Position numbers and translations under genes: made by a program. Below are positions 24,921-46,780 of a stretch of 64,000 nt of DNA, piece by piece. Below the pieces are notes generated by a model. That model made no database searches. It was not told the DNA's origin and saw only the letters and a list, made by a program, of their open reading frames with translations. Origin of the DNA: Nitratiruptor sp. YY09-18 (GTDB taxonomy: Bacteria; Campylobacterota; Campylobacteria; Campylobacterales; Nitratiruptoraceae); the NCBI RefSeq assembly GCF_016593235.1, contig NZ_AP023065.1, forward strand, positions 1,488,001 through 1,552,000. Direction: 5' to 3'. Within the stretch, counting starts at the first letter, position 1; the number at the start of each line of letters is the position of its first letter.

Positions 24921-24928
24921 GAGTTGCA

Positions 24929-28335: not shown

Positions 28336-28408
28336 TGATGTTTGGGGATAAATCTTTCATAAGATCTATCACCAAACATCACTATGCGGCTGAAATTGCC
28401 GCATAGTG
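28336..28408. other. Two adjacent strong hairpins inside the feo gene cluster
   Basis: Hairpin A (28336-28381) pairs TGATGTTTGG with CCAAACATCA and continues inward through GATA/TATC and ATCTT/AAGAT with a few mismatches. Hairpin B (28380-28408) is an 11-bp perfect stem (CACTATGCGGC) with a 7-nt loop. On the transcribed minus strand B begins 5 nt after the triple-FeoA stop, then A, then an A-rich tract. Lack of a U-tract argues against simple termination. An RNA-processing or stability element is more likely. Confidence 0.6.
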
Positions 28409-28413
28409 TATAA

Positions 28414-29103: not shown

Positions 29104-29117
29104 TTTTTTCTCCTTTT

Positions 29118-29309
29118 TTATTTTTGTGTGATTGCCCCAAAAGGACACATTTCACATGCCCTTTGCAAGCATGCTACTTCCATATCATTTTGCGGATTTC
29201 GTACTATCTCATAATAGCCATCTCCACCTTTTTTGATCATACCTCTTCCTGCTCTCAATGCTCTGGCACATCTTTTACACTTCGTTCGATCTATTGTAAA
29301 AGTTGGCAT
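29118..29309 (-). CDS. Small ferredoxin-like protein, first gene of feo operon
   Basis: 63 residues with Cys11, Cys14, Cys47, Cys52 and Cys55-Pro. This resembles a single-cluster [4Fe-4S] ferredoxin (CxxC ... CP), with the loop between cluster halves widened by a Lys/Gly-rich insert. It is read toward feoA-feoB and is preceded by a Fur palindrome (29333-29357). A role in reducing iron or a cluster at the Feo complex is plausible, not shown. Confidence 0.75.
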   Translation of the reverse strand: MPTFTIDRTKCKRCARALRAGRGMIKKGGDGYYEIVRNPQNDMEVACLQRACEMCPFGAITQK

Positions 29310-29332
29310 ACTCCTCCTTTCGCTCTACTTCT

Positions 29333-29357
29333 AATAATGATAACTAATATCATTATT
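29333..29357. promoter_or_regulatory. Fur-box palindrome upstream of the feo operon
   Basis: A nearly symmetrical AATAATGATAAC...ATATCATTATTT lies 24 nt upstream of the ferredoxin ATG. Together with the palindrome at 29393 it flanks the divergent promoter region between the feo operon and the TauE-type gene. Confidence 0.7.
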
Positions 29358-29392
29358 TACCAAAATTGTATATCCAAGAGCATTAAACATTT

Positions 29393-29421
29393 CTTAAAAT
29401 GATAGTCATTATCATTTTAAT
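29393..29421. promoter_or_regulatory. Extended 29-bp Fur-box palindrome
   Basis: CTTAAAATGATA...TATCATTTTAAT contains TGATAGTCATTATCA, the same 15-mer as upstream of the Fur-family gene (39531-39545). Extended arms CTTAAAAT/ATTTTAA(G) recur at 37040 and 39472. It lies 62 nt upstream of the TTG start at 29484. Confidence 0.75.
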
Positions 29422-29483
29422 TCGATTTTTATCAAGATGAGCTATAATCGTATTTTTAATTAATTTAATTTAAGGATTATAGT

Positions 29484-30218
29484 TTGGAGTATCTTCTCTA
29501 TTTTACAGTTACCCTGATACTTTCTACTCTATTTGCTATGGGTGGCACTGGCTCTGGAATTGCCCTAATACCTGTTTTACATCTCCTTGGTATCGGATTT
29601 AATCTGGCTAAAGCTGTAGGACTTTTTGTAGGTTTTGCAACCACTTTTACTTCCAGTATCATGAATTTTAAGCGGAAGGTCCTCGATGTGAAATTCGCTC
29701 TCCCGCTTGCTTTGACGCTGCTGGTTTTTGCTCCAATCGGTGCACAGCTTTCACGATTCGTGGATGAGAAAATCGTCAAAGTTTTATTTATTCTATTTCT
29801 TTTTTTCAGCGCTACAATGATGATGTTTTTTAAAAAGGAGCCAAAAGCACATTTCCAAAAACCATGGGTATTAGTGATACTGGGAATAGTAGTAGGTCTT
29901 CTTGCCGGACTGCTTGGTGTGGGAGGCGGAAATATGCTCCTTCCAGTTTTGATTCTTCTAGGTTTTGAGCCCAAAAAGGTAGCCGTTGCAGTAAGCTTTA
30001 TGGTGCCTTTTTCCGCATTTACCTCATTTTTGAGTTATGCCAGTTTCGTACAAATGGATTGCATTCTTTTGGGAGTCTGTGCAATTGCCGCTATTATTGG
30101 AGGATTTATTGGAAATCATATTATGCACGTTAAACTCACCCAAAGCCAAACAAAGAGAGTTATTGCAGTCATTTTATATATTTTAGCAATACATATGGCT
30201 TTCACTCTTGTCGCCTAA
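29484..30218 (+). CDS. TauE/SafE-family membrane permease, Fur-boxed
   Basis: 244 residues with about eight hydrophobic helices and the two family repeats: GGTGSGIALIPVLHLLG near the start and GLLGVGGGNMLLPVLILLG in the middle. The start codon is TTG with AAGGA 8 nt upstream. TauE/SafE proteins export or import small anions or sulfur compounds, and the substrate cannot be read. The Fur palindromes in its promoter tie it to iron. It converges on the FTR1 operon with a 32-nt gap and no clear terminator. Confidence 0.85.
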   Translation: MEYLLYFTVTLILSTLFAMGGTGSGIALIPVLHLLGIGFNLAKAVGLFVGFATTFTSSIMNFKRKVLDVKFALPLALTLLVFAPIGAQLSRFVDEKIVKVLFILFLFFSATMMMFFKKEPKAHFQKPWVLVILGIVVGLLAGLLGVGGGNMLLPVLILLGFEPKKVAVAVSFMVPFSAFTSFLSYASFVQMDCILLGVCAIAAIIGGFIGNHIMHVKLTQSQTKRVIAVILYILAIHMAFTLVA

Positions 30219-30250
30219 AAATTAATATAAAATGCTCTATTAACATATTT

Positions 30251-32263: not shown

Positions 32264-32264
32264 C

Positions 32265-33749
32265 TTATATCTCCTTGCTATCTTGCGCCATTAAAAATTT
32301 TGGTATAGGAATGTTTCTATGAAGCGATTTTATAATCAGCTCCTCATAGGCAATCTTATACCAAAGTTTTGCCTCAAGTTTTTTGACTTTTTTCCCATTT
32401 AATGGGACTTTATAAGTAACTATTTGAAATCCTCTTGGTGGAATAGGAGGTCTTGTTAAAATAATATCAGCTGTTTTAAAAGTTAGGTGATCCATTATAA
32501 TATTGCCTTTTTTATCCAAAAATCTCTCTGCCCAAATGACAACATCTTTTTCTCTATCACTCTCACCACTATTAAAAATTGTGCTGTTATTTTCATCAAA
32601 AGCTTTTAACTGCAACCAGATATGTTTTTGATCTATTACTCCTGTTGGCAGGTTATGTCCAGCTCCTACATTACTTACCTTTACTTTGACTTCAAGCTCA
32701 TTGCCAATTTGTTTTTGAGAGATAATCTCTACTTTTGCTGCTGCTTTTAAAAACTTTTCTGTTACTGGTCGTTGTTTATCCATAAGTTCAAAATATTTTT
32801 TTGCACTCACTCCAGGTAATACTCCACCTCTTATAAATAAAAGCTTCTCTTTTAAACTTGTATCTTGTAAAACATGATTACCACCCCAAAAATTATGTGA
32901 ATATTTTTTTGGTTTTTTTATGATTCCTTTTTGTAAATTGGAAATAAACTCAACCGGTTTATAATTCATATGGCAATCTTGGCATGTAATATTATTTTTC
33001 GCATACCAGCTATTTTTCCATTCATCATAAGTGCTTTGTGCTTTTAGCACTTTTGTTGAAGGAGTTACTGGAGGATAGTATCTTTCATTATGGCATGCTC
33101 CACAAAACGCTGAACTTCTTAAAAGCTCATTTGTTTTTGCACTTCCAAAGGCTCTTGCATGGTCTCTTGGACTTGCCAAAATTGCAGAGCCACTTAAATT
33201 ATCATACGCTTTATTTAGATCAAATGTAACTGCTCCATTACCAGTTTGTGGATCTGCTTTTGTAGCTGTATGACAAAAGACACATGCCAAACCTTCTGTT
33301 TGCACATCGCTTGGCTCTACACTTATAATTGGATTATTCCGTCCCATAGCAACTTCCATAGGATTATGACAGCTATCACAAAATCTTGAAAGTTCCCTTC
33401 CATGATGCCTTTTTTTAATTTGCACATTTGCCTCAATGGAGTTGTCATAAACTAAATCTCTACCACTGATACTATGCAAAGATGGCACCCATTCTTCAAA
33501 CTCTTTTTTATGACATTTCACGCAGGCTGAAGAGCTTGGAATTGCTTTTGGATTTCCCATTTTTCCATCGGCTGTTGCCAAATGTCCCGGGAAAAATGGC
33601 TGATCTTTGCCCCAAGGAGTTGAGTAAAAAAGAATATCTTTAACATCTACTCCCTTATACTCTTTTTTAGGTGTAAGTATGTAGATTATGCTCACACCTA
33701 AAAGAGAAAAGATAAAAGAAAAAAGAATAATCTTTTTATATTTTTTCAT
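32265..33749 (-). CDS. Penta-heme cytochrome c, putative iron-uptake redox partner
   Basis: 494 residues. An N-terminal signal anchor (about 8-26) is followed by five CXXCH motifs: CVKCH, CDSCH, CVFCH, CGACH and CQDCH, all in the first 250 residues. The C-terminal part is beta-rich without hemes (VKVKVSNVGAGHNLPTG, a conserved His in GAGHNLP). The arrangement resembles cytochrome c554-type multiheme proteins with a beta domain. It overlaps the b-type gene by 4 nt and directly precedes FTR1, so it probably sets the redox state of iron at the permease. Confidence 0.85.
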   Translation of the reverse strand: MKKYKKIILFSFIFSLLGVSIIYILTPKKEYKGVDVKDILFYSTPWGKDQPFFPGHLATADGKMGNPKAIPSSSACVKCHKKEFEEWVPSLHSISGRDLVYDNSIEANVQIKKRHHGRELSRFCDSCHNPMEVAMGRNNPIISVEPSDVQTEGLACVFCHTATKADPQTGNGAVTFDLNKAYDNLSGSAILASPRDHARAFGSAKTNELLRSSAFCGACHNERYYPPVTPSTKVLKAQSTYDEWKNSWYAKNNITCQDCHMNYKPVEFISNLQKGIIKKPKKYSHNFWGGNHVLQDTSLKEKLLFIRGGVLPGVSAKKYFELMDKQRPVTEKFLKAAAKVEIISQKQIGNELEVKVKVSNVGAGHNLPTGVIDQKHIWLQLKAFDENNSTIFNSGESDREKDVVIWAERFLDKKGNIIMDHLTFKTADIILTRPPIPPRGFQIVTYKVPLNGKKVKKLEAKLWYKIAYEELIIKSLHRNIPIPKFLMAQDSKEI

Positions 33750-34171
33750 CTATTGTCCTTGTGTTTAAAAGATAGATGCAAAACAAAAAGCAGAGTAAAA
33801 AAAACCGCTATAATCAAGTGAATATTGGATATAAAATCATAAGTTTCAAAACGATAATAGATTGGTTTGAAAAAATAGCTTAGATACGGAATAAAATGGG
33901 CTAAACCGCTTACAAAAAGAACTATTAAAAGTGCTAACATAAAATATGAAAGCTTTATAAAATTTGAACTGTTGGCCCGCAATTTTGAGGTTTTGATATG
34001 TTTTGGAAGAGTATAGAGCAGATAGAAAACAAAAAGCACACCCAGCCACAAATGAATATTTAAAATAGTCTCTGCGGCACCCCAATTTAGTGGTGCCGCA
34101 AAGTAATAAACAAATCCGCTTACAAGCATTACCACCGCAATGGCAATGGTATATAAAGCATAGTTCTTCAT
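33746..34171 (-). CDS. Four-helix b-type-cytochrome-like membrane protein
   Basis: 141 residues, four transmembrane helices. It has an internal duplication: NIHLWLGVLF...KH and NIHLIIAVFF...KH, each helix with a His at the start and another 18-19 residues later. Paired His on two helices fit a bis-His b-heme as in DUF4405/cytochrome b561-like proteins. It shares one base with the imelysin stop (TAATG) and overlaps the penta-heme gene by 4 nt, so it likely hands quinol electrons to that cytochrome. Confidence 0.75.
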   Translation of the reverse strand: MKNYALYTIAIAVVMLVSGFVYYFAAPLNWGAAETILNIHLWLGVLFVFYLLYTLPKHIKTSKLRANSSNFIKLSYFMLALLIVLFVSGLAHFIPYLSYFFKPIYYRFETYDFISNIHLIIAVFFTLLFVLHLSFKHKDNR

Positions 34172-35205
34172 TACACATTTGGCTTAATATGTAGTTTCTT
34201 AGCCGCTTTTGCCATAAGTGCGCTTAATCTATCTGCCATATCTTGAGCCTGGGATGCATATGCATCAGCATCTTCTGGTTTAAAAATATGCCCAGACTGC
34301 TCTTTCATATAGATATCATCCACAAATGAAACTAAATCATAAAAAGCAAGTCTAATTTGACTATCTAGTTTTGGATCAACTTTTTTTAGTTTTGGATGAA
34401 TCGCCGCTTCATATGCAACTTTAAGCCCGCCACTAATTCCTTTGATATCGAAAATTCTTGAAAGCGCCACAAAAGCTTCAGATTTACCAAGGATTCTACT
34501 ATTTTTCCAATCCTCAAAATAATCGCCCATTGTTGGAATCATTGTAAGCTCAGCCGTAAATACATCGGTGAGATTCATCTTAAGATCTTTTACCTTATCT
34601 TTTAGCTCTTTTGTATACTTTGCAAAATTATCCGCTACGCATTTAAGCCATTTTGCGTTTGGAAGAGCTTCACCTTTTGTAATTTGACCATCACCATTTA
34701 AGTCAACTTTTTTTGCTACATATGCTTCATGCGTTCCCCAAAGGGTTGGCTCAAGCAGATAGTGAAAAAAGTTTCCGGGTCTTTTTGTGTTGAATTTGCA
34801 TTTATACGGGCACTTCAAATCAAAAGGTGCTACATCTTCATTGCCTTCGCTTGCAGGAATTCCGGCATCCAAAATAAGGTCATATTTTGCAGTTTGTGGC
34901 ATACCAGCAACAAGTCCTTCAATAATCTCATAGTTGCTTGATGCTTCAAGCCACGCCCTTTTCATCTGTTCTATATCTTTTGTAAGATCTTTTCTGTTTT
35001 TCTTCCAAGCTTTGTCATAATTAAAATGAAAAGCCTTTATGTCTTCATAATAGTCATCTGCAATCTCTTTGAGCTTTTTTGCTTCATTATAAAGCTTTGT
35101 AGCGTGCTCAAGCTCAAACTCTTTTACTTTGTTTATCCCGCTATCAGCTAAAAGAGTTCCTGAAAGAATAAAACCTGCAACCATTCCCATTACCATTTTT
35201 TTCAT
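34171..35205 (-). CDS. Imelysin-family (M75, EfeO-like) periplasmic protein
   Basis: 344 residues, Sec signal peptide (MKKMVMGMVAGFILSGTLLA). The helical body, with the WGTHEAYV segment near residue 157, fits the imelysin/EfeO-type family, though the canonical GxHxxE is not intact. A DLNGDGQITKGE loop near residues 168-180 looks like an EF-hand Ca2+ site, unusual here. CPYKC near 131-135 could form a disulfide. EfeO-like proteins bind iron in the periplasm and deliver it to EfeU/FTR1, the downstream partner in this operon. Confidence 0.8.
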   Translation of the reverse strand: MKKMVMGMVAGFILSGTLLADSGINKVKEFELEHATKLYNEAKKLKEIADDYYEDIKAFHFNYDKAWKKNRKDLTKDIEQMKRAWLEASSNYEIIEGLVAGMPQTAKYDLILDAGIPASEGNEDVAPFDLKCPYKCKFNTKRPGNFFHYLLEPTLWGTHEAYVAKKVDLNGDGQITKGEALPNAKWLKCVADNFAKYTKELKDKVKDLKMNLTDVFTAELTMIPTMGDYFEDWKNSRILGKSEAFVALSRIFDIKGISGGLKVAYEAAIHPKLKKVDPKLDSQIRLAFYDLVSFVDDIYMKEQSGHIFKPEDADAYASQAQDMADRLSALMAKAAKKLHIKPNV

Positions 35206-35230
35206 AATCTCTTCTCCTTTTTAGACTAAA

Positions 35231-35731
35231 TTAATCTCTACTATTTGCAATATTTCCTATCTCTTTATCAATCATAAAAAGACCTCTACCTTCTGTCCCA
35301 ATAATCTCAAACTTATCTAAAATTCCTTTAAAGAGAGCCTCTTCTTCATGTTGCTCTGCGGTATACCACTGCAAAAAGCTGAAGGTAGAATAATCTTTTA
35401 ACTGTAAAGTAAAATCTACTAAATCAAAGATTTTTTGTGTGATAAACTGCTCATGCTTATATGTTTTTTCAAAAACTTCTTGCAATGAAGAAAACTCATT
35501 TTCAGGCGCTTTCATACCGGTTATAATGGCTTGCGCGCCTGTTTCATTGATATATTGAAAGAGTCTTTCCATATGTTCCATCTCTTCAGCTGCATGTTGA
35601 TTTAAAAATCGAGCTGACCCTTCAAACCCTTTTGCCTTGCACCAAGCGCTCATCGCTTTGTAGATATTTGCCGATTCAAACTCCAGCATCATCTGCTCAT
35701 TGAGTCTCTCATTAAGCTCTTTTTTTAACAT
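35231..35731 (-). CDS. ftn: Ferritin (non-heme)
   Basis: 166 residues with the ferroxidase ligands in place: Glu17, EEMEHM near 49-54, Glu94 and EQHEEE near 126-131. It stores iron as ferric mineral in a 24-mer. It lies between the imelysin gene (25-nt gap) and the porin, so storage is co-located with uptake. The 106-nt region before it holds two mutually exclusive hairpins that could adjust its expression. Confidence 0.95.
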   Translation of the reverse strand: MLKKELNERLNEQMMLEFESANIYKAMSAWCKAKGFEGSARFLNQHAAEEMEHMERLFQYINETGAQAIITGMKAPENEFSSLQEVFEKTYKHEQFITQKIFDLVDFTLQLKDYSTFSFLQWYTAEQHEEEALFKGILDKFEIIGTEGRGLFMIDKEIGNIANSRD

Positions 35732-35761
35732 GTCTATCCTTTTGATTGTTTTGGCAAAAAT

Positions 35762-35841
35762 GCCTTAAGCAGCCCTCAAAAAAGGAGTAAGAATGAAACT
35801 GGCACTTGAGGGCTGCCTAAGGCATCTAAAAGATGCCTTAG
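35762..35841. other. Overlapping, mutually exclusive hairpins between porin and ferritin genes
   Basis: On the minus-strand mRNA three segments occur: CTAAGGCATC (35832-35841 arm), a middle arm (35806-35826) and a last arm at 35762-35779. The middle arm can pair with the first (10-bp perfect stem, 5-nt loop, covering the porin stop codon) or with the last (18-bp stem, one mismatch, 26-nt loop, followed by ATTTTTG). The second form looks like a terminator. The pairings share bases, which is attenuator geometry. Confidence 0.6.
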
Positions 35842-36980
35842 AAAGAGTAATTGACAAAAAATCTTGTGTTGGTAAAATTATCTCCATTAATATCATCATC
35901 AACATCACTGTAAATGAGATCAAAACTTAAACTATCATTGAACGCATAGCTGATATAGCCATCAAATTCTGTTGAGTCCACATCGTTTTTATCTGTTAAA
36001 TTCAAATACCCCACACCAAAAGTCAGTCCATCCACTCCAAAAGAGCCCAAATCAAGCTCGGCATTTACATACCAGGCATCTGCATCCACTCCACCCTCAG
36101 CCAATGTGAGCACTTCGGCTGAAGTAAAAAACGGACCTCCTCCAAAACCGTTATCTGCTGTATTGTCATTGCTTTTGTTGTAAGCAATACCTAAGCTAAA
36201 TCCTTTATACCCTGCACTAGCACTTACACCATAAATTGAAGCAGCATCAGCACTTTTGTAGTTTTGATACGCATACTGCAATCCTATTGCATATGAAACC
36301 CCGTTTGCCTCGCCTTCATAATTTGCATCCGCATAGAAAATCTTGTCAATCGCAAAGTCATTTAGGTAGTAATACCACGCTGAAACTGCTAATCCTTCAA
36401 TTCCTTCATACGTTATACTTGCAACTTGCACTCCATCATCACCATTTAAATCTTCAAAGCTTGAAGGATTGGGCGCATCAACACCAGCCCATCGTTGCAC
36501 TTGTCCTAAAATAATTGTAGTATCAGGTAGATCTTTATTGATTACAAGTGCCGCTTCAAAGGTATTTGGAACCATTGCAATATCATCCGTATCGGCAAAC
36601 GGCGTATCAATCTCTTGTCGACCGACTTTGATAGTCGTATTACCGAATTCTCCTAAAAGATAGGCTTCTCCTAAAATTGAGTAAGATTTGTTGTTTGCAT
36701 TAAAAAAGCCAAATCCTTCAGCCCCGTCATTGATATGCCCAACAACATTTGTCGTATAAAAACTAGCTCCTGCACTTACTCCTTTAAAAGAGTTTGTTTC
36801 AACATGAAGTTTTCCACCTAAAGACATATCACTATTTGAGTCATCGTCATATTGATATCCAAGTCTGATATATCCGTTAACAGTTTTTATAAATTCATTT
36901 TTTAAAGAGCTCCCTTCATCTGCATATATCGTAACACCTAACATCATTATAGTGGTTGCACTAAGTACAATTTTTTTCAT
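35838..36980 (-). CDS. Outer-membrane porin, Fur-boxed
   Basis: 380 residues from the ATG at 36980 (MKKIVLSATTIMML), with GGAAG upstream; the start at 36995 only adds 5 residues before the signal peptide. After cleavage near YAD the chain alternates aromatic and polar residues, and it ends in FVNYSF, the terminal Phe of outer-membrane beta-barrels. It resembles the OprD-like porins of Campylobacterota. A 29-bp Fur palindrome (37040-37068) precedes it, so it may admit iron complexes under limitation. Confidence 0.85.
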   Translation of the reverse strand: MKKIVLSATTIMMLGVTIYADEGSSLKNEFIKTVNGYIRLGYQYDDDSNSDMSLGGKLHVETNSFKGVSAGASFYTTNVVGHINDGAEGFGFFNANNKSYSILGEAYLLGEFGNTTIKVGRQEIDTPFADTDDIAMVPNTFEAALVINKDLPDTTIILGQVQRWAGVDAPNPSSFEDLNGDDGVQVASITYEGIEGLAVSAWYYYLNDFAIDKIFYADANYEGEANGVSYAIGLQYAYQNYKSADAASIYGVSASAGYKGFSLGIAYNKSNDNTADNGFGGGPFFTSAEVLTLAEGGVDADAWYVNAELDLGSFGVDGLTFGVGYLNLTDKNDVDSTEFDGYISYAFNDSLSFDLIYSDVDDDINGDNFTNTRFFVNYSF

Positions 36981-37039
36981 CTTCCTTCCTTTCAAAAATT
37001 TTATATCTGAAATTTTAATTCACATAATCTTGGTTAATT

Positions 37040-37068
37040 CTTAAAATGATAATTGATATCATTTTAAG
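37040..37068. promoter_or_regulatory. 29-bp Fur-box palindrome upstream of porin
   Basis: CTTAAAATGATAAT...ATATCATTTTAAG is an almost perfect 29-bp palindrome. It overlaps the stop codon of the DUF2325 gene and lies 59 nt before the porin ATG. The same extended arms occur at 29393 and 39472. Confidence 0.75.
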
Positions 37069-37349
37069 ATTTTACTAAATTTTTCTATTTTGCTTTTTAA
37101 ATCATTTTTACTATGTTTACTATATACTGTAGGAATTTTTCTCTTTTGTGCCTCTTTTTTAAAAACTTCCATTTTGTTGTGCGAGAGATAATCTGTTATA
37201 AAAACAACCATATCAATATTACTTGGAATTTTTCTTTTATAAAAATTTTTCTTTCTACAGTCAAAATGAATCACTTTCGTTGCACCAAGTTCAAAAAGAG
37301 TAGATTTTATTTGTTGGACTTTATCTGCACCTATTACTAATACTCCCAT
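37059..37349 (-). CDS. DUF2325 protein, copy 2
   Basis: 96 residues from the ATG at 37349 (MGVLVIGADK), the exact counterpart of copy 1; the longer start at 37364 is not shared. HFDCRKKNF is identical in both copies. Two Fur-box-like sites (37370, 37430) lie immediately upstream, and its 3' end carries the porin's Fur palindrome. The second copy sits in the tonB/porin group, the first beside the flavodoxin operon. Confidence 0.8.
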   Translation of the reverse strand: MGVLVIGADKVQQIKSTLFELGATKVIHFDCRKKNFYKRKIPSNIDMVVFITDYLSHNKMEVFKKEAQKRKIPTVYSKHSKNDLKSKIEKFSKILK

Positions 37350-37369
37350 AGCGTTCCTCTCCATGTTTT

Positions 37370-37388
37370 AATAATGAATTTCATTTTC
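37370..37388. promoter_or_regulatory. Fur-box-like site upstream of DUF2325 copy 2
   Basis: AATAATGAATTTCATTTTC, 14 of 19 consensus positions, lies 20 nt upstream of the DUF2325 copy 2 ATG. It resembles the site at 23681. Confidence 0.55.
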
Positions 37389-37429
37389 ATTAAAAGTTTA
37401 AGAAAAAACTGCTTAACCCAGACTTAATA

Positions 37430-37444
37430 TGATAATGATTATCA
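37430..37444. promoter_or_regulatory. Perfect 7-1-7 Fur box
   Basis: TGATAATGATTATCA is an exact 7-1-7 inverted repeat of the Fur type. It sits between exbD's 3' end and DUF2325 copy 2, 80 nt upstream of its ATG. Confidence 0.75.
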
Positions 37445-37489
37445 ATTTATGAATAGTTCTTTTATACTTAAAAACGATGGTATAGCATT

Positions 37490-37873
37490 TTATTTTGCTT
37501 CATTGACAAGAGCAATATTGTTAAGTTCATACTTTTTTAAAATATCTAATAATTTCACAATCCTCTCATAACGGACATCTTTATCAATTCTCACAAAAAC
37601 CGGCTGTTTTTTATCTGCTACCCTTGCAAGAGACCCATCCAGCTCTTTAAAAGAGACTTTTTTACCTCCTAATGCAAGCTCAGTTGAAGATAGCTCAATT
37701 GTGATTTTCTCTTTTTCTATTGTTTTAGCTGATGATTTACTACTTGGCAAATTAAGCAGTAGTGCCAACTCATCTTTTTTAAAAACGGTGCTAACTAGAA
37801 AAAATACCAATAACAAAAAAACTACATCAATAAGCGGCGTCATATCGGGAGTTATCTGCTCTCTTCGCTTCAT
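37490..37873 (-). CDS. exbD: ExbD-type energy transducer
   Basis: 127 residues: a short cytoplasmic N-terminus, one transmembrane helix with the conserved Asp ([15 protein letters not shown]) and a periplasmic domain. ExbD Asp in the helix is the proton-binding residue. It overlaps exbB by 4 nt and completes a tonB-exbB-exbD operon. Products power the TonB-dependent receptor at 40157. Confidence 0.93.
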
Positions 37874-38406
37874 AGCAACTCTTTTTTATAAAGAGATGGC
37901 AAGATATCACTTGTAATAGCAACTTCCAATCCATCAAGCATGCTAACAAGATAGTTATATCCCACAACATGGGGAATGGCTACAATAAGTCCAGCTACTG
38001 TGGTTATAAGAGCCATAGATATACCACCGGCAAATGTTGATGGATCGCCCAATCCACTTTTAGATATTGCTTCAAAAGCAAGCAAAACCCCGATAACCGT
38101 TCCAAGCAGTCCAAGCAAAGGTGCAATAGAGGCAATTATTTTAATTGTTCCTAACCCTCTTTCAAGATAGTAAAGCCTTTTGGCAATCTCATCTTTGATA
38201 AGCTCCATCACGATATGCTCATCATGAAGCGGGATTTTTTTAGCTTGAATGTAATCAATAACTTCTTGCAAAATCACGGATTTTTTCCGTTTTGCTATAA
38301 GAATCTGGATAAACTTTAGAAACATAATTGTGTATCCTATGATATTGAGGACGATTAAAATATATACTATCACGCCACCTTTTTCTATATAATCCATCAA
38401 ATGCAT
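37870..38406 (-). CDS. exbB: ExbB-type proton channel
   Basis: 178 residues with three transmembrane segments, the MotA/TolQ/ExbB signature [19 protein letters not shown] and a C-terminal TM pair. The start at 38406 has AAGGA 5 nt upstream. Shorter than E. coli ExbB, typical of Campylobacterota. It forms the proton channel with ExbD that drives TonB. Confidence 0.93.
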
Positions 38407-38416
38407 ACTCTTCCTT

Positions 38417-39196
38417 TCATTTTATTACATATTTAATAGGAACAACGATATCTAAATGATCTACGCCGAGCTCTTTTGGTATAGGCTTAAACTTTCCAAT
38501 TTTTTGCAATGTCTCGATTGCCCCATTATTGAGTCTTTTATATTTTGATGGTTTGAGGATATTTACATTGGTTATCCTCCCATCTGCTAATATTGTAAAA
38601 CTTACAACCACTACGCCTTGCTGTTTTAACCTTTTTGCAATTTTAGGATAATATTTTTTTGCTTCAATTTTAGCTTTTACTAAACTCATATAGTTTGCTT
38701 TTACTCTATTTTTCAAAATGGTATTATCTCGTTTTGTTTCTGTTTTTGGCACTCTATTTTCATTCTTTTGAATGTTTTTTATCATTTTTTGATGTTCGCT
38801 AGATTTTTGCTTTTTAGATAGTTGAGGCTTAGAGTTTGATTGAGGTTTAGGCTTAATTTTTTGCTTTCGTATAAGCTTTTTTTGGGACTTAGGTTTTGGT
38901 GTATGTTTATATTTATGGCTTAGCTTTGGTCTTGGCTTAGATTTAGGTTTAGGTTTTAGCTTTGGTTTTGGTTTGATTTTTGGTTTGGGAGATAATTGAG
39001 TACTTTGTTTATATTGAATATTTCTTATAGATTTATACCTTGGCTTTTGGATAGTAATTTTATAAAGCTTTAGTTGTTGAATCTCTGTTTTTTGCTCTTT
39101 TATTGATATAGGTGTAGTTTTTGAAAATAGAAAAATCCCATGAATGAGTAATACTACAACAAAAATTATAAATTTTATATTCTTGGAAACTTCCAA
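38417..39196 (-). CDS. tonB: TonB with extended Lys-Pro spacer
   Basis: 259 residues. An N-terminal membrane anchor (about 8-25) is followed by a spacer of Lys-Pro repeats (about 65-130) that bridges the periplasm, then the C-terminal TonB domain ([32 protein letters not shown]). The start is TTG at 39196 with only a weak RBS (TAGGT). No better in-frame ATG occurs before the anchor. A 35-residue microprotein ORF lies immediately upstream. Confidence 0.92.
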
Positions 39197-39209
39197 TATC
39201 TACCTAATT

Positions 39210-39317
39210 TTACGAAAATCGTTTTTTATATTCAGTAATAAAATAGATACTGTGAATTTTTGAATGCATATGTATCCATCTATTTAACTTTTTAAATATT
39301 TGCAATAGAAATTTCAT
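39210..39317 (-). CDS. 35-residue microprotein, paralogue of the 23140-23226 ORF
   Basis: ATG at 39317 follows TAGGAG 6 nt upstream. The 35-residue product is basic with HSKIHSIYFI in its second half, mirroring YSKINSIYAI in the ORF at 23140. The two align without gaps from Phe8/Phe6 to the end of that motif. It lies 13 nt before tonB, downstream of the strongest Fur palindrome, and is probably co-transcribed. Function unknown. Confidence 0.6.
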   Translation of the reverse strand: MKFLLQIFKKLNRWIHMHSKIHSIYFITEYKKRFS

Positions 39318-39471
39318 TAATCACTCCTACTAATAAATTTTGTAAAATAAAGTCTAAAGAGATGAGCAAGGATGACTACATAGTTATTAGATCACTCCTT
39401 ATTTTTCATATCAAAACTCGATAATGAAATTTATTTTCAAAAAAGTTTACACAAGGCATTCTTAGTTACAT

Positions 39472-39500
39472 CTTAAAATGATAACGATTATCGTTTTAAG
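39472..39500. promoter_or_regulatory. 29-bp Fur-box palindrome, tonB/fur divergent region
   Basis: CTTAAAATGATAAC...TATCGTTTTAAG, near-perfect 29-bp palindrome. It lies between the leftward microprotein-tonB unit (155 nt from its first ATG) and the rightward Fur-family gene. Apart from this and the site at 39531, I see only AT-rich sequence in 39318-39557. Confidence 0.8.
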
Positions 39501-39530
39501 CTCTCTTTAACATCTCTTTATATACGATTT

Positions 39531-39545
39531 TGATAGTCATTATCA
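39531..39545. promoter_or_regulatory. Fur box adjacent to the Fur-family gene start
   Basis: TGATAGTCATTATCA lies 12 nt before the ATG of the Fur-family gene, near or over its RBS. The position suggests tight autoregulation. The identical 15-mer occurs at 29400-29414. Confidence 0.75.
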
Positions 39546-39557
39546 TAAAGGGAAGCG

Positions 39558-39986
39558 ATGGATATAGATACCTGTCTTAAAAAGAGAGGATTAAAAGGGA
39601 AAAAGATTAAAGAAGCAATTATTGAAATATTAAATAAATCTTCACAACCTTTAGCAGCAGAAGAGATTCTTGCACGTATTGAAGAGTTTCCTATAAGAAA
39701 ACCTACACTCAATACTATCTACCGTTCCTTAAGAATTTTAATGGAGTGTCAAATTATAAAAAGTGTCACTATCGAAAATAGAAAAGTTTTTACAATGAAA
39801 ACATATAAATATGAAGTTTGCCATATATGTGGAGAAATTATACATTTTGAAGAACTAAAAAACCAACCTGAGTGTTCATCTGAAAATAAACCGAATGGAA
39901 TAGTGTTTTACGCAGTATGTAAATTTTGTAATAGACAAAATGCAATTATTTTACAAGGAGAAGAAAATGATACACAAGAAAGATGA
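39558..39986 (+). CDS. Fur-family metalloregulator
   Basis: 142 residues. The winged-helix N-terminus has RKPTLNTIYRSLRILMEC, the recognition-helix region of Fur proteins. The C-terminus carries two CxxC pairs, CHICG and CKFC, a structural Zn site. The usual His-rich sensing string is weak (EIIHFEE). It could be a Fur, Zur or PerR; adjacency to iron transport genes and Fur boxes at its own promoter favour iron. It begins an operon with the 57-residue membrane protein and the receptor. Confidence 0.85.
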   Translation: MDIDTCLKKRGLKGKKIKEAIIEILNKSSQPLAAEEILARIEEFPIRKPTLNTIYRSLRILMECQIIKSVTIENRKVFTMKTYKYEVCHICGEIIHFEELKNQPECSSENKPNGIVFYAVCKFCNRQNAIILQGEENDTQER

Positions 39987-40140
39987 AATGCAAACACATG
40001 GCAGCTATTTACCTGAAAAGATAATAAATTTGCTGCTATTACTATTTACAACAATAATAGTTTATAGCTATCTCGTATTTTCTCTTGAGGAGAAAAATAT
40101 AATGAGGGCTTTAAATCAATGGTTTGCATACATATTTTAA
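39967..40140 (+). CDS. 57-residue single-TM membrane protein
   Basis: ATG at 39967 follows AAGGAG 7 nt upstream and overlaps the regulator's 3' end by 20 nt. One hydrophobic helix (IINLLLLLFTTIIVYSYLVF) is followed by a short charged tail. It ends 16 nt before the receptor gene. No recognised family; small membrane proteins often accompany TonB or receptor genes. A longer frame from 39940 lacks an RBS. Confidence 0.6.
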   Translation: MIHKKDEMQTHGSYLPEKIINLLLLLFTTIIVYSYLVFSLEEKNIMRALNQWFAYIF

Positions 40141-40156
40141 AGATTGGGAGGAAGAT

Positions 40157-42490
40157 ATGAAAATGAAAATTAAGAACATCGGGCTCTCTATAGCCCTAGC
40201 AACAATGCTTTTACAGGCTGAAGATATAAATTTGGGTGAAGTGACTGTCACAACAGCAACCAAAACAGAAAAAAATATAGAAGGTGTAAGCGCTTCAGTT
40301 ATTGTAATTGACGAAAAGACAATAGAAAAAATGGGTGCTTCTACGTTAGGTGATGTTATCTCAAAAACTCCTGGACTCATAAGGCAGTATGGAACGTTTC
40401 CTTCAGCTTCAAGCAAATCAAAATCCTCTATTTCAATTAGAGGAATGGGCGCAACTGGAACACTTTTTTTAATAGATGGCCAAAGAATAGCAGGAGAAGT
40501 TAAAAATCCTTACGATCTTGATCGAATTCCAGCATCAATTATTGAGCGTATAGAAATTGTAAAAGGGCCGATGAGCACTCTTTATGGTGCAGATGCAGTT
40601 GGTGGAGTTATCAATATTATCACAAAACAGCCAAAAGATAGATTTCAAGGCTCTATGGGTATTCAAAGCGGTTCAAATACAAAAGGAGAAGGAAGAAACA
40701 ATAATGCCTATTTTAATATGAGAGGGAAAAAGAATAAATTAAAATATAGCTTTTACACAGATATCTCCCATTCAACTCCATATACCCAAAAAGAAAGAAC
40801 ATATGTAAAACTTGGTGGACAAAAACTGAGTCCTTCACAACTGCAAAAAGTTCCAATAGTACCATACTTAAAACCCAATAATCCACAAACACATGGAAAT
40901 CCCTTTTATCTGCAACCGGACAAAACTTCTAAACCTATACCATTAGATCCAAATTTAGTTAATCTCGATAGAAAAACTGCTTTAGATGATTTTAACAGAT
41001 TCAAAAATGATTTTAAAAAAGCAGGAGTAAAAGACTTTTATGATACTGATGTCACATATAGAGAAAGAGCAAATGTTTTTAATGTGGGAACAAAAGTTGA
41101 ATATGAACTCAATGAGCAAACTTCATTGGGAATAGATTTTTCTTATATGAAAGAAGAAAGATGGGGAGTATATAATGCATATGCCCACCCTTTTGGAGTA
41201 AAGCCTCCTATAGGACATCCCAAAAATCCTATTGTAGGGCATAAACCAGATGGAACTCCTGTAAGTTTTGTTGATAAAATAGGACATCCTATGGGAATGT
41301 GTCCAGCATGGAATGTTCCAGTAAACTCTCATGACAAAAACGATAGACGAAATATTGGCGCTTTTATGAACTATTTAGTCAATGATGACTTATCGTTGAA
41401 ACTGCATATATACAACTCCTACTATAGAAAAAGAAATATTACTACTATGAAATATTGGAAGGATTTTGGTTTTAAAAGCGAAAAAGAGTCTGCAGCAAAT
41501 AGTATGAATGCTAATGTTGATATTACATCATACGAACTTTTAGCTAACTATGCCCTTAATGACGCACATCTTTTAACCTTTGGGACTGAATATAGAGACG
41601 AAGAAAGAGAGGCAACCGTTTTTGATTCTACTCCAAATATGGGAAAAAAAGAGGTTGATTATAAAGCCATCTATTTACAAGATGAGTGGGAAGTTAGCGA
41701 TACTCTTAATGTAATTGGCGGAGCAAGATATGATGCTATAAGCAATGCAGACAATAAAGCTACTTTTAGATTGGGAGCCGTCAAAAACTTTTCAAAACTC
41801 TTTAATCTAAGAGTAAATTTCGCACAAGGCTACAGAACTCCTGATATCAGAGAACTCTATATCAACAAACAAACCCCAATGGGACTAATTCAAGGAGCAG
41901 AAGTTGTTGGATATGATCTAAAACCAGAATTTACCAACTCTTATGAGATTAGTGCAAGTGGGACAAAAGAGCACTTTAGTTATGAAGTGGCTTTTTTTCT
42001 TAATAAGATTGATGATCGCATACAAAAAGTTGCAGGGAGTAACCCCGGCTCATATACGTTTATAAATGTCAGCGATGCTGAGACAAAGGGAATGGAACTA
42101 ACCCTTACTTACGATTTTGAAAATGGCTTTACTACTGAGCTTACCTGGAATGAGCTAAGAACTGAAGATAAAAAAACAAAAAAAGATTTGGAGTTTAATC
42201 CAGATAGAGTTGTAGCTCTCAAGTGTGATTACACTTTTTCTAAAAACTTTAACATAAACCTAATAGCAACCTATACAGGCAAAGAGCACTATACACAAAT
42301 GACACCAAAAGGAAAAGTTGAATTGACAACAGATCCTTTTACATTGGTAGATCTTACAGCATCCTATAAATTTGCTCAAAATTATGAACTTTTTGGTGGA
42401 GTAAACAATCTTTTTGATGAAGATGTAGATGATGTTCTAGGCTCAACTGTTGGAACTTATATCTATGCAGGCTTAAGAGTAAATTTTTAG
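40157..42490 (+). CDS. TonB-dependent outer-membrane receptor with metal-ligand-rich loop
   Basis: 777 residues from the ATG at 40157 (GGGAGGAAG upstream). A signal peptide ends near LQAED, and a TonB-box-like stretch (LGEVTVTTATK) precedes the plug domain (about 30-150, DAVGGVINIITK). A 22-strand barrel follows, ending GLRVNF. An extracellular insertion at about residues 340-385 is rich in His, Pro, Gly and Met with one Cys (repeated GHP, then GMCP), and an earlier Pro-rich loop spans about 230-275. Siderophore, heme or another metal chelate is the likely ligand class. Confidence 0.92.
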   Translation: MKMKIKNIGLSIALATMLLQAEDINLGEVTVTTATKTEKNIEGVSASVIVIDEKTIEKMGASTLGDVISKTPGLIRQYGTFPSASSKSKSSISIRGMGATGTLFLIDGQRIAGEVKNPYDLDRIPASIIERIEIVKGPMSTLYGADAVGGVINIITKQPKDRFQGSMGIQSGSNTKGEGRNNNAYFNMRGKKNKLKYSFYTDISHSTPYTQKERTYVKLGGQKLSPSQLQKVPIVPYLKPNNPQTHGNPFYLQPDKTSKPIPLDPNLVNLDRKTALDDFNRFKNDFKKAGVKDFYDTDVTYRERANVFNVGTKVEYELNEQTSLGIDFSYMKEERWGVYNAYAHPFGVKPPIGHPKNPIVGHKPDGTPVSFVDKIGHPMGMCPAWNVPVNSHDKNDRRNIGAFMNYLVNDDLSLKLHIYNSYYRKRNITTMKYWKDFGFKSEKESAANSMNANVDITSYELLANYALNDAHLLTFGTEYRDEEREATVFDSTPNMGKKEVDYKAIYLQDEWEVSDTLNVIGGARYDAISNADNKATFRLGAVKNFSKLFNLRVNFAQGYRTPDIRELYINKQTPMGLIQGAEVVGYDLKPEFTNSYEISASGTKEHFSYEVAFFLNKIDDRIQKVAGSNPGSYTFINVSDAETKGMELTLTYDFENGFTTELTWNELRTEDKKTKKDLEFNPDRVVALKCDYTFSKNFNINLIATYTGKEHYTQMTPKGKVELTTDPFTLVDLTASYKFAQNYELFGGVNNLFDEDVDDVLGSTVGTYIYAGLRVNF

Positions 42491-42540
42491 CAAAATATTT
42501 TCAGGTTATAATCAACTTAATTGTATATAATTTTGAAATC

Positions 42541-42559
42541 TATTATCATAATCATAATC
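42541..42559. promoter_or_regulatory. Fur-box-like site upstream of ABC transporter genes
   Basis: TATTATCATAATCATAATC is a series of NAT triplets matching the Fur consensus at about 14 of 19 positions. It sits 12 nt before the substrate-binding protein ATG, in the 81-nt gap after the receptor gene, so the ABC genes may have their own iron-responsive promoter. Confidence 0.5.
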
Positions 42560-42571
42560 TAAAGGATTGAT

Positions 42572-43540
42572 ATGAAAAAAATGTTATTGTTACTCTCTGT
42601 GTTTTTGACATTTTCAATAGCATCAGAGAAACTTGAAAAAATTGTTATAGCAGGACCTTCTGCAAATGTATCTCATCCGATTTTTCGTATGATTGAGAGC
42701 GGGGCTCTCAAAAAGTATGCAAAAAAAATTGAGTTCAAACTTTGGAAAAATCCAGATCAACTAAGAGCGATGATTATCAATAAGGAAGTAGATTTTGTAG
42801 CGGTTCCAACAAACGTGGCCTCAATTTTATATAACAAAAATCAGCCAATTAGACTCCTTAATGTCTCCATTTGGGGGATTTTGCATATTTTAGTAAGGGA
42901 TAAAAATATAAATACCCTTGAGAAGCTAAAGGGAAAATCGCTTCTTGTTCCTTGGAGAGGCGATATGCCAGATATCGTTTTACAGGCCATTATGAAACAA
43001 AAGAAATTAAGCTCTAAAGATATTCATCTTATTTACGTCTCCAATCCAATGGATGCAGCTAGCCAGCTTATCATGAGACGACAAGACAATGCCCTCTTGC
43101 CAGAGCCTGCAACATCGATGGTGCTTAGAAAAACACACTCTTTTCCTATAAGTATCGTTGCTCCAGAGCTTTATAGAGGAATTGACTTGCAACAAGAGTG
43201 GGCAAAAGCTTTTCATACAAAACCTAAAATTCCACAAGCCGGTATGGCAGTTGTTGGGAAAATGAGAGAAAACAAAAAAATTGTTGAAGCTTTTGAAAAA
43301 GCGTACATTGAGGCTATGCAGTGGTATAAAAGCCATCCAAAAGAGGCAGGAAAACTTGTTGTAAAATATGTAAAAATGTTTACACCAGAGGCTGTGGCAG
43401 ACTCCATTAGCCATGTAAAAATGGAAGTTGTTAAAGCAAAAGAAGCAAAAAAAGATATTGAATTTTTCTTTGAAAAACTAAAAGAGCAAAGTCCAAAAAT
43501 CATAGGTGGAAAACTTCCTGATGAGGAGTTTTACTACTGA
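42572..43540 (+). CDS. ABC substrate-binding protein, NitT/TauT (SsuA/THI5-like) type
   Basis: 322 residues with an N-terminal signal peptide and no lipobox. The fold motif is the NMT1/THI5 type: IVIAGPSANVSHP at the start, VDFVAVPTNVASILY (near 71-85) and LKGKSLLVPWRGD (near 122-135). These proteins bind small anions or organic molecules (nitrate, sulfonates, pyrimidines). Its place after the TonB receptor and a Fur-like box suggests a chelator or iron-linked substrate. It abuts the permease gene by 1 nt. Confidence 0.85.
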   Translation: MKKMLLLLSVFLTFSIASEKLEKIVIAGPSANVSHPIFRMIESGALKKYAKKIEFKLWKNPDQLRAMIINKEVDFVAVPTNVASILYNKNQPIRLLNVSIWGILHILVRDKNINTLEKLKGKSLLVPWRGDMPDIVLQAIMKQKKLSSKDIHLIYVSNPMDAASQLIMRRQDNALLPEPATSMVLRKTHSFPISIVAPELYRGIDLQQEWAKAFHTKPKIPQAGMAVVGKMRENKKIVEAFEKAYIEAMQWYKSHPKEAGKLVVKYVKMFTPEAVADSISHVKMEVVKAKEAKKDIEFFFEKLKEQSPKIIGGKLPDEEFYY

Positions 43541-44322
43541 TGGATGCTCTTAAAAAAATCATCAAAGACTTTCCAAAATTTTTATGGAGTGGTTGGGGCT
43601 CCATAGCTGCTATTTTTCTTTTTATTGCAGCTTGGGATGTGGGCAATCAAATTTATGGGGATATGATTTTGCCCTCCCCTTTGCAAAGCTTTCAAAGTGT
43701 TTTAGAGCTGTTTCAAGACAAAGAGTTTTTAGAGAATCTTTCTATTACAATTAATAGAGTGATTGTTGGATTTGGTCTCTCTCTTTCAATTGGAACGCTC
43801 CTTGGCTTAATAGCCGGTTTTTTTATTACAGCCTCCGTTGCAAGCCGTCCAATCATTACAATTTTAATGGGAATGCCACCGATTGCCTGGATCGTTTTGG
43901 CGATGATTTGGTTTGGTATGGGAGATATGACGGTTGAATTTACCGTATTTGTCGCATCTATGCCAATAGTATTTATTGGGGCTTTGCAGGGAACAAGAAC
44001 GCTAGAGGATAAATTTGAAGAGATGGCAGATACTTTTAAAGTGCCAAAGTTGATGAAATTTACCGATATTTATCTGCCTCATATCTTCTCTTATATCTTT
44101 CCTGCTTGGGTCAGTGCTCTTGGAATGGCTTGGAAGATCGTTGTAATGGCGGAGCTTTTGGCTACAAGCGATGGTATTGGTGCGGCTTTGGCAATGGCTA
44201 GAAGTCAGCTTGATACCAAAACAGCTCTTGCACTTGTTGTTATCATGATTGCTCTTTTAATGATTGTAGAGTATATCTTTTTAGAACCTATTAAAAAAGA
44301 AGTGGAAAAATGGCGCGATTGA
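43540..44322 (+). CDS. ABC transporter permease, NitT/TauT type
   Basis: 260 residues with six transmembrane helices and the EAA-type loop near DKFEEMADTFKVPKLMKF, where the ATPase docks. The family (binding-protein-dependent transport inner membrane component) matches the substrate-binding gene upstream. It overlaps the ATPase gene by 13 nt. Confidence 0.9.
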   Translation: MDALKKIIKDFPKFLWSGWGSIAAIFLFIAAWDVGNQIYGDMILPSPLQSFQSVLELFQDKEFLENLSITINRVIVGFGLSLSIGTLLGLIAGFFITASVASRPIITILMGMPPIAWIVLAMIWFGMGDMTVEFTVFVASMPIVFIGALQGTRTLEDKFEEMADTFKVPKLMKFTDIYLPHIFSYIFPAWVSALGMAWKIVVMAELLATSDGIGAALAMARSQLDTKTALALVVIMIALLMIVEYIFLEPIKKEVEKWRD

Positions 44323-45041
44323 AGGTAGAGCATCTGACATTTTCTTTTGGATATAAAACAATCCTTGAGGATATCAGTTTTGAAATAGATGAAGGAGAAG
44401 TTGTCTCAGTTGTAGGACCAAGTGGTGGAGGAAAAACAACACTTCTTAGGCTATGTGCGGGTCTACTGGATAGACAGGAAGGAACGATTGAAAATAGCTT
44501 CAAAACACAAGCAATTGCCTTTCAAGATGCAAGACTGCTTCCATGGAAAAATGTGCTTGATAATATCGCTTTTGGTCTCAAAGCTCAAGGAGTTTCTAAA
44601 AAAGAACGCATCAAAAGAGCAAAAGAGATTGCTTTGAAATTTGATTTAGAAGAGGATGATTTTGAAAAGTTTCCAAAAGAGCTGAGTGGTGGGATGAGTC
44701 AAAGAGTCTCATTTGCTAGAGCCCTTGTCACAAAGCCAGAGCTTCTTTTTTTAGATGAGCCCTTTTCAGCTTTGGATATTGGTCTCAAAAGAGAGCTGCA
44801 AAACCATTTGATTGAGCTTATCGATAAAAAAGCAATTACTATTTTTTTTATAACACACGACTTAATGGAAGCAGTGAAACTGAGCGATAAGATTTTTGTG
44901 CTTGAGCCAGATCCGGGTAGAATCGTTAAAACTTTCACAATCGATATTCCACAAAGCAAAAGAGACGATAGCTATGTTTACAGCGAAACTGCAAAGCTGT
45001 TACAAGATCCTTATATTATAGAAACGTTTGAACTGGAGTAA
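44310..45041 (+). CDS. ABC transporter ATPase, NitT/TauT type
   Basis: 243 residues. Walker A GPSGGGKTT (near 37-45), Q-loop in AIAFQDAR, signature LSGGMSQR (near 127) and Walker B LLFLDEP (near 148) are intact. It energises the permease at 43540. The next gene, NnrS-like, starts 2 nt after its stop, so all four genes behave as one operon. Confidence 0.95.
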   Translation: MARLKVEHLTFSFGYKTILEDISFEIDEGEVVSVVGPSGGGKTTLLRLCAGLLDRQEGTIENSFKTQAIAFQDARLLPWKNVLDNIAFGLKAQGVSKKERIKRAKEIALKFDLEEDDFEKFPKELSGGMSQRVSFARALVTKPELLFLDEPFSALDIGLKRELQNHLIELIDKKAITIFFITHDLMEAVKLSDKIFVLEPDPGRIVKTFTIDIPQSKRDDSYVYSETAKLLQDPYIIETFELE

Positions 45042-45043
45042 AT

Positions 45044-46273
45044 ATGGCAGCTACAAAACATTATGAATCCTATCCCAAAGGAGCTTTTCCTACCTATCTT
45101 GCTTACGGTTTTCGCCCGGCCTTTTTGCTGATGCCTCCTTATATGATTCTTTCAATTCTTCTTTGGGTGCTTTACTACAATGGTTATATTGCTTTGCCAT
45201 TTATTGGTGATGGCATGAGCTGGCATATCTACGAGATGCTTTTTGGAGTAGGATTTTTGGGAATGGCTGCCTTTATTTTAACAGGAGCACCTGAGCTTTT
45301 TCCTGGAACCGTTCCAATTGTTGGAAAAGAGTTAGCTGCTCTTTTTGGATTTTGGATAGTAGGTAGAATTGCCTTTTGGACGATGGGAGTTATTGGAGTC
45401 TATCCGGCAGCGATTATTAACATAATCCTCTTTGCCTGGCTTACCCTTTTGGTTATCAAGCCAATCTTGAAAGATCCAGCCAAACGCCATGTCAGTATCG
45501 CCTATACCTTTATAGCCGTGCAAGTTGCACAAATTTGGTTCTTTTTAAGCGCTGCAGGAGTTGTAAAAACAGATCCTTTAGATGTTTTAAAGCTCAGCCT
45601 TGGCGTATTTTTGATTCTTATTATTCTTGCAATTCGCAGAGTAAACACAGAAGCTGTCAATGAGATTTTAGAACATGAAGGGTATGAAGAGATCTTTTTT
45701 GCAAGACCTCCGGCATATAACTTGACAATTTTTATGATTGCTCTTTTTAGCGCACTTGAATTTTTCTTTCCGCAAAACAGAGCATTAGGCTGGGTGGCTT
45801 TAGGCACAGCAAGTGCAGCTTTGGCAATTTTGAATGATTTTATCAATTATGAAGAGACAAATATTTTATTTAAAAAGCTCATTTTCTCATTAGAGCTCGT
45901 TCCAATTCTTATAGCTATTGGTTATGGACTCATTGGCTATAACTATTTAACCGGAATGAAACTTTTTAACGGAGATCTTTTGCATATGCTTACAACCGGT
46001 GCATGGACACTTTCGTTTTATGTGGTTATGATTGTTGTTACGATTGTTCATACTGGAAGAGATATCGCCAAAGCAAGAGACAATTTTATCTGTTTGGGAA
46101 CAGTCTCTATCATTATCGCAGCACTGCTTAGGACAGCTGTTGCCTTTTATCCTGAGTATGCACAACTGCTTTATTTTCTCTCTACTCTTTTTTGGATAAG
46201 TCCTTTTGTTATCTATATGATACGATATTATAAATGGTTATTGAGCCCAAGGGCTGATGGTCTTCCTGGATAA
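45044..46273 (+). CDS. nnrS: NnrS-family heme/copper membrane protein
   Basis: 409 residues, about twelve transmembrane helices. It has the N-terminal GFRPAFLL motif and the His-containing WHIYEMLFG stretch, which typify NnrS. NnrS proteins bind heme and copper and protect against nitrosative stress under NO-dependent regulators in denitrifiers. Here the gene is attached to a TonB receptor/ABC operon with Fur-type sites, not to nitrite or NO reductase genes. That context suggests a link to metal or heme handling, though NO protection of iron proteins is another reading. Confidence 0.85.
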   Translation: MAATKHYESYPKGAFPTYLAYGFRPAFLLMPPYMILSILLWVLYYNGYIALPFIGDGMSWHIYEMLFGVGFLGMAAFILTGAPELFPGTVPIVGKELAALFGFWIVGRIAFWTMGVIGVYPAAIINIILFAWLTLLVIKPILKDPAKRHVSIAYTFIAVQVAQIWFFLSAAGVVKTDPLDVLKLSLGVFLILIILAIRRVNTEAVNEILEHEGYEEIFFARPPAYNLTIFMIALFSALEFFFPQNRALGWVALGTASAALAILNDFINYEETNILFKKLIFSLELVPILIAIGYGLIGYNYLTGMKLFNGDLLHMLTTGAWTLSFYVVMIVVTIVHTGRDIAKARDNFICLGTVSIIIAALLRTAVAFYPEYAQLLYFLSTLFWISPFVIYMIRYYKWLLSPRADGLPG

Positions 46274-46282
46274 AGGAGTATG

Positions 46283-46780
46283 ATGAGACTTTTTATAGGT
46301 AGTTTTGCTCACATTCCAAAATATCAAGAAATAAAAAATAGTTTCTCATTTCTAGAAGGAAAGTGGGTAGAAAAACGCAATCTTCATCTTACATATATTT
46401 TTCTTGGCGAGATAGAAACTCCAAAACTTATAACACAGAAATTAGAAAATTTTTCTCCAAATCTTTCGCCTTTAAAAATAGAAGGACTGGGCTTTTTCGG
46501 TAATCCTGCCAAAATATTATATGCAAAAGTCGATGACCAATCTTTGAGTGATGTGGTCAAAACACTCCAAGAGAGACTAACAATAAATATTGATAAACCC
46601 TTCATTCCCCACATAACACTATGTCGCATAAAAAAGGTCCATAATTTTAAGCGCTTTGTAACCACAGTAAAAAGTTATGAGAAAAAAGAGCTTGGCTTTA
46701 TTGAGCCAAAAATCCAACTTATTCAAAGTATACTTACGCCAAAAGGGCCTCGCTATATTCCGTTACACTCTTTTATATGA
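46283..46780 (+). CDS. thpR: RNA 2',3'-cyclic phosphodiesterase ThpR (LigT-like)
   Basis: 165 residues, 2H phosphoesterase. The two HxT/Sx motifs are HLTYIFLG near residue 35 and HITLCRI near 110. It opens 2',3'-cyclic phosphates on RNA. Two ATGs (46280, 46283) lie in series after AAGGAG; the second has the better spacing. It may be the last gene of the receptor/ABC unit (9 nt after nnrS), and it overlaps the convergent cupin gene by 28 nt. Confidence 0.9.
   Translation: MRLFIGSFAHIPKYQEIKNSFSFLEGKWVEKRNLHLTYIFLGEIETPKLITQKLENFSPNLSPLKIEGLGFFGNPAKILYAKVDDQSLSDVVKTLQERLTINIDKPFIPHITLCRIKKVHNFKRFVTTVKSYEKKELGFIEPKIQLIQSILTPKGPRYIPLHSFI

Follow-up and report, generated by a model that had tools for sequence, protein, structure and literature searches.

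The locus studied here raises the question of what would be imported by a gene run that joins a TonB-dependent receptor, a NitT/TauT-type ABC transporter and the membrane protein NnrS, and what NnrS would do there. The window is the whole stretch of 64,000 nucleotides analysed from Nitratiruptor sp. YY09-18, which has a genome of 1.757 Mb. The sequence and its ORFs showed a packed plus-strand run of furP, a 57-aa ORF, the receptor, the periplasmic binding protein (SBP), the permease, the ATPase and NnrS (Table 1). The SBP and permease genes overlap by 1 nt, the permease and ATPase genes overlap by 13 nt, and NnrS follows after a gap of 2 nt. The continuous unit described in the original prediction is exact by these ORF coordinates, and with a gap of 2 nt only, no separate nnrS promoter was evident. 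The gene run thus stands, but as a single transcription unit it needs correction. The receptor–SBP spacer is 81 nt long and contains a separate Fur box, which makes two promoters probable. A gap of 6 nt separates NnrS from thpR, a gene that also comes after NnrS in the Nitratiruptor congener L033. The divergent tonB, exbB and exbD genes, the complete energiser that the receptor requires, use a control region in common with the furP side. No Rfam or tRNA match indicated a structured RNA, riboswitch or tRNA in the window.

Table 1. Positions of the features discussed (window numbering, except where a locus is named).
Feature	Position	Strand	Remark
Adjoining iron island	25755-37364		feoB, feoA-like, TauE, FTR1, multihaem cytochrome, cytochrome b, imelysin, ferritin, OprD porin, DUF2325
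Composite FNR-like and Fur-like site	29395-29435		upstream of feoA-like/feoB genes
exbD	37490-37873	-	energiser, divergent from furP
exbB	37870-38406	-	energiser, divergent from furP
tonB	38417-39196	-	energiser, divergent from furP
tonB/furP divergent control region	39197-39557	.	three Fur-like boxes
Fur-like box, 15/19	39420		tonB/furP control region
Fur-like box, 15/19	39474		tonB/furP control region
Fur-like box, 16/19	39526		tonB/furP control region
furP	39558-39986	+	FUR family match
57-aa hydrophobic ORF	39967-40140	+	without family match
TonB-dependent receptor	40157-42490 (ATG start)	+	plug + barrel, CirA-like
Fur-like box, 15/19	42541-42559		upstream of SBP gene
SBP	42572-43540	+	NMT1/NitT-TauT fold
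ABC permease	43540-44322	+	type I (BPD_transp_1)
ABC ATPase	44310-45041	+	ABC_tran
NnrS	45044-46273	+	ABC-linked clade
thpR	46280-46780	+	RNA 2',3'-cyclic phosphodiesterase ThpR
Plug-less barrel, TIGR01778-related	L044 7812-9707; L045 10478-12341; L065 9310-11163; L079 10273-12120; L083 5842-7632; L051 5000-6920
135-aa UPF0093-like protein	L053 8978-9385; L064 9004-9417; L070 8900-9298; L074 9025-9402; L080 11071-11469

The domain matches showed that the ABC transporter is of the NitT/TauT type: PF09084 reached 28.9 bits (cut-off 20.5), PF00528 65.6 (26.4) and PF00005 98.6 (25). The named NCBIfam equivalog cut-offs were missed by all three proteins. The permease, nearest to the SaoP/SsuC/NrtB models, scored 123 of 295 bits with SaoP, the ATPase 195 of 357 bits with the taurine model, and the SBP 43.5 of 163.5 bits with the SsuA family. 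Classical siderophore systems use FecCD-type permeases. No FecCD/BtuC type II permease is present at the module, where the permease is BPD_transp_1. The predicted SBP model (pLDDT 90) was closest to the solved structure 3hn0 (Z 32.1, 26% identity), and further fold matches were PqqT, SsuA, CmpA and NrtA, with Z of 22–32 to the NitT/TauT class. The search output names no cargo for 3hn0, and the SBP alignment contained no conserved Cys/His/Met metal site, so the cargo cannot be called from this modelled fold. Because the SBP has no conserved metal ligands, any metal binding would need a chelator.

An SBP profile search showed that the SBP family occurs in 95 of 397 Campylobacterota genomes (24 of 68 genera), and NnrS occurs in 173 of the 397. 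NnrS was present in 94 of the 95 SBP-positive genomes versus 79 of the 302 SBP-negative ones (Fisher p 2.4e-41; the genomes are related, and such p-values overstate their independence). The neighbourhood conservation that the original prediction had set beforehand as its test was borne out: 48 of the 50 SBPs of the window type have NnrS within 5 kb; of the remaining two, one is at a contig break and one has NnrS 20 kb away. The gene order varies: some loci place NnrS between the SBP and ATPase genes, and others have a divergent SBP gene. Despite these changes, the SBP/ABC/NnrS set remains together. Carriers occur in Sulfurimonas, Arcobacter, Campylobacter-type branches and Neisseria, and the presence of the core in Neisseria and alpha-proteobacteria goes beyond the original prediction. 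The SBP-permease-ATPase-NnrS core adjoins nap genes in an Agrobacterium plasmid record, lies beside an Rrf2 regulator in a Chelatococcus plasmid record, and is accompanied by pseudoazurin and NnrU in a Martelella plasmid record. In Paracoccus the core is accompanied by a TonB receptor together with an Rrf2 regulator, in a Neisseria gonorrhoeae record by a plug-less barrel in two reading frames, and a relative in Diaphorobacter has cobN and further TonB receptors alongside. The ABC-NnrS core is a widespread unit, surrounded by iron genes in many Campylobacterota and by denitrification genes in several alpha-proteobacteria. The iron-related neighbours of the module copies include the FTR1/ferritin/imelysin island, FeoB, Fur with DUF2325, ChaN, PepSY and TonB. 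A 135-aa membrane protein, weakly UPF0093-like, was also seen to recur inside or beside the module in several genomes.

What NnrS does biochemically is, to our knowledge, not settled. One publication terms it a postulated sensor without demonstrated role. The NnrS of the window matched PF05940 at 265.9 bits (gathering score 28), and H61, H314 and H336 were invariant in the alignment. Its predicted structure was poor (pLDDT 57). The NnrS tree, from which row L087 (wrong frame) was left out, grouped the 22 linked copies of the window type, without exception, in a single clade (SH-aLRT 100) that is separate from 16 unlinked copies. Many genomes carry a second, unlinked NnrS besides the linked one. 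The second NnrS of YY09-18 (G000:C1:98271-99398, L002) groups within the unlinked clade. An NnrS clade tied to a single importer, with predicted iron-type and often FNR-type control, shows where to look for the function of this protein.

The outer-membrane part of the module is variable. The window receptor has both a plug and a beta-barrel domain over the cut-offs (PF07715 92.7 bits, PF00593 167.7 bits). Profile searches found its subfamily in 24 genomes, all SBP-positive (p 6.5e-25) and adjacent in 18, and a MetA-type porin in 12 genomes, all SBP-positive and adjacent in 11. Neither was found by these profiles in 16 of the 50 window-type cases. The three Nitratiruptor congeners with the module all have the porin instead of the receptor. 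In the Campylobacter-type branch, where the SBP is about 31% identical, a plug-less barrel stands in the receptor's place; its nearest model is TIGR01778 (176 bits, 1e-51, below the cut-off of 472). The original prediction had joined receptor, ABC transporter and NnrS in one module. The ABC-NnrS linkage holds, but the receptor is not obligatory, and a porin or plug-less barrel replaces it in many relatives. In the Campylobacter/Helicobacter-type branch and, in two frames, in Neisseria gonorrhoeae, the module begins with plug-less TonB-receptor-like barrels. Three assignments were rejected for the window receptor. It is not an OprC/NosA copper receptor (TIGR01778 58.6 bits, cut-off 472) or a heme receptor (TIGR01785/86 scores below cut-off), and its His/Met/Cys-rich loop at about residues 345–385 was dropped as a metal site, being mostly missing in all aligned relatives.

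The nearest named relative found was Nitratiruptor sp. YY08-14, whose 27-kb plasmid pNitYY0814 (L047, NZ_AP023062.1) bears most of the island that is chromosomal in YY09-18. Three segments of the window, 24157-25501, 30290-37450 and 42630-46274, match the plasmid at 93–97% identity (93% for the second and 94% for the third), and the rounded identity of the permease and ATPase proteins is 100%. The segment between, 37450-42630, is a largely different cassette with exbD-exbB-tonB, furP, the 57-aa ORF and the receptor; a furP homologue with 70% identity lies at the equivalent place of the plasmid. The limit of high identity was located at 42572-42630, in the part of the SBP gene that encodes the signal peptide. 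With the receptor cassette swapped and a porin as alternative, the simplest inference is that the cargo is unchanged and small enough for a porin. The iron island of the window, in which a flavodoxin is also counted, shares its FTR1-to-DUF2325 set with pNitYY0814. FTR1, multihaem cytochrome c, cytochrome b, imelysin and ferritin (30251-35731) form a conserved set that is also present in L021 and L047, and it looks like a cytochrome-coupled iron permease system.

Regulation was predicted from operator-like boxes. The Fur-like sites of the original prediction are real, at 39474 and 42541 (15/19 each) and 39526 (16/19). The window contains 11 Fur-like sites of at least 15/19, which stand at flavodoxin, feoA, DUF2325/exbD, the tonB/furP gap and the SBP gene; simulated 64-kb sequences averaged 4.75 matches at a threshold of at least 14/19. 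Within 250 bp upstream, a Fur box of at least 15/19 was found at 24 of 35 module lead genes versus 15 of 212 other genes in the same loci (p 4e-15), and an FNR-type box of at least 9/10 at 17 of 35 versus 16 of 212 (p 2e-8), the loci being related. The boxes in the window and their enrichment across module lead genes agree with the iron linkage first proposed, and predict Fur-type control as in siderophore and heme uptake. The Fur boxes are weaker in the Campylobacter/Neisseria branch.

The FNR-type box in many relatives adds to the original prediction. Composite FNR+Fur operators (TTGATnnnnATCAATGATAATTAATATCA) occurred at 17 sites in 840 kb, 13 of them at module promoters, and the simulations gave 2, 0 and 0. 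The FNR–Fur spacing at module promoters was 1 bp in 12 of 13 loci. About 28 bp separate the FNR box from a -10-like hexamer downstream, a placement resembling class II activator sites, and the core promoter is overlaid by the Fur box. We read this arrangement as a promoter activated by an FNR-family protein and repressed by iron, and the FNR-type box would add nitrogen-oxide/oxygen-type control to iron control. In the window, neither furP nor the SBP gene is preceded by an FNR-type box that exceeds chance expectation, and predicted Fur boxes alone are present there. A composite FNR-like and Fur-like site was also noticed upstream of the feoA-like/feoB genes (Table 1). The furP gene is the most divergent of the three Fur-family genes of the genome. 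It is without the HHDH motif of canonical Fur and keeps two CxxC pairs; being divergent and without HHDH, its product may not sense iron in the usual way.

We infer the direction of transport, the cargo, the chemistry of NnrS and the actual regulation as follows. Our leading, still tentative reading is an iron-repressed importer of a small organic chelate, most likely of iron, in which NnrS keeps the cargo usable under NO. The best reading of the predicted operators is that in many lineages this importer would also be activated by an FNR-family protein. The cargo would cross the outer membrane via the TonB-driven receptor in YY09-18 or the MetA-type porin in congeners. The NitT/TauT-fold SBP would catch it in the periplasm, and the type I permease and ATPase would pump it inward. 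NnrS, made from the same transcript, would be a fixed inner-membrane partner, most likely keeping the incoming iron or chelate usable with NO present by redox chemistry or denitrosylation at heme/copper centres. A narrower version, in which the importer takes a small iron complex (possibly NO-formed) that the dedicated NnrS reduces or denitrosylates at the inner membrane, is rather unlikely; if true, iron-complex denitrosylation or reduction would give an NnrS clade a defined biochemical function. Besides the lack of a conserved metal site in the SBP and of a FecCD-type permease at the module, two observations stand against the iron-chelate reading. Alpha-proteobacterial copies have nap, pseudoazurin, NnrU and Rrf2 genes as neighbours instead of a conserved iron uptake set, and the Campylobacter/Neisseria branch has a barrel nearest the copper model together with weaker Fur boxes.

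The main rival to iron is copper. A copper complex may be imported for the copper enzymes of nitrogen-oxide respiration and received or handled by a copper/heme NnrS, which we consider unlikely. NnrS is listed among copper proteins (PMC6769254), the plug-less barrel matches the TonB-copper model TIGR01778 at 1e-51, pseudoazurin is a neighbour, and among 100 relatives NosZ is somewhat commoner in carriers (11 of 16) than in non-carriers (33 of 84, p 0.03). However, Fur boxes and iron genes surround many Campylobacterota copies, and both the window receptor and the plug-less barrel fail the copper-receptor cut-off. NosZ is missing from 5 of the 16 carriers, and copper supply to N2O reductase was rejected as the sole purpose.

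Also unlikely is an organic cargo, such as heme, a PQQ-like compound, a pyrimidine or some other cofactor or nutrient, needed under iron shortage and taken up with NnrS as an accessory. PQQ, sulfonates and thiamine precursors are ligands of the SBP's fold neighbours, several loci include a small membrane protein resembling UPF0093, and the Diaphorobacter relative has its cobN and TonB receptors, but the fold family is generic and no recurring biosynthetic or salvage gene was seen with the module. Least likely, NnrS is a merely co-expressed general NO protection that sits in an iron operon as iron pools are NO-sensitive, with an unrelated ABC cargo: Fur and FNR boxes would suffice for this without direct interaction, and NnrS is placed in NO-responsive regulons of many proteobacteria (PMC1274295), but the linked NnrS is a separate clade that stays with the ABC genes through gene-order changes, and many genomes including YY09-18 have an unlinked NnrS besides.

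The proposed iron-chelate importer was compared with known systems. It resembles the CirA/Fep and Hmu siderophore and heme importers in having a CirA-like receptor, TonB-ExbBD, Fur boxes, and an SBP and ABC pump in one locus. It differs in its NitT/TauT-type I ABC transporter, which is not FecCD/BtuCD, in the fixed NnrS and in a receptor replaceable by a porin. The NMT1 SBP fold and the permease and ATPase families are those of NitT/TauT importers (Tau, Ssu, Nrt, Cmp, ThiXYZ, PqqT, SaoABP), whereas the tie to NnrS, the predicted iron and FNR type control and the scores under every named equivalog cut-off set the module apart. The Campylobacter-branch barrel is nearest the model of the OprC/NosA copper receptors, but is without plug and below cut-off, and the window receptor is outside that family. 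NnrS, termed a hypothetical heme-copper membrane protein in PMC1274295, has its Pfam family and conserved histidines in common with the NnrS of NO regulons in R. sphaeroides, Vibrio and Shewanella. Unlike those, it belongs here to a separate clade locked to an importer, and the available parts of the literature mention no adjoining importer. The original prediction knew of no described system of such composition, and likewise none was found in the literature searched, which covers few subscription papers. The parts are of known kinds, and their combination is new.
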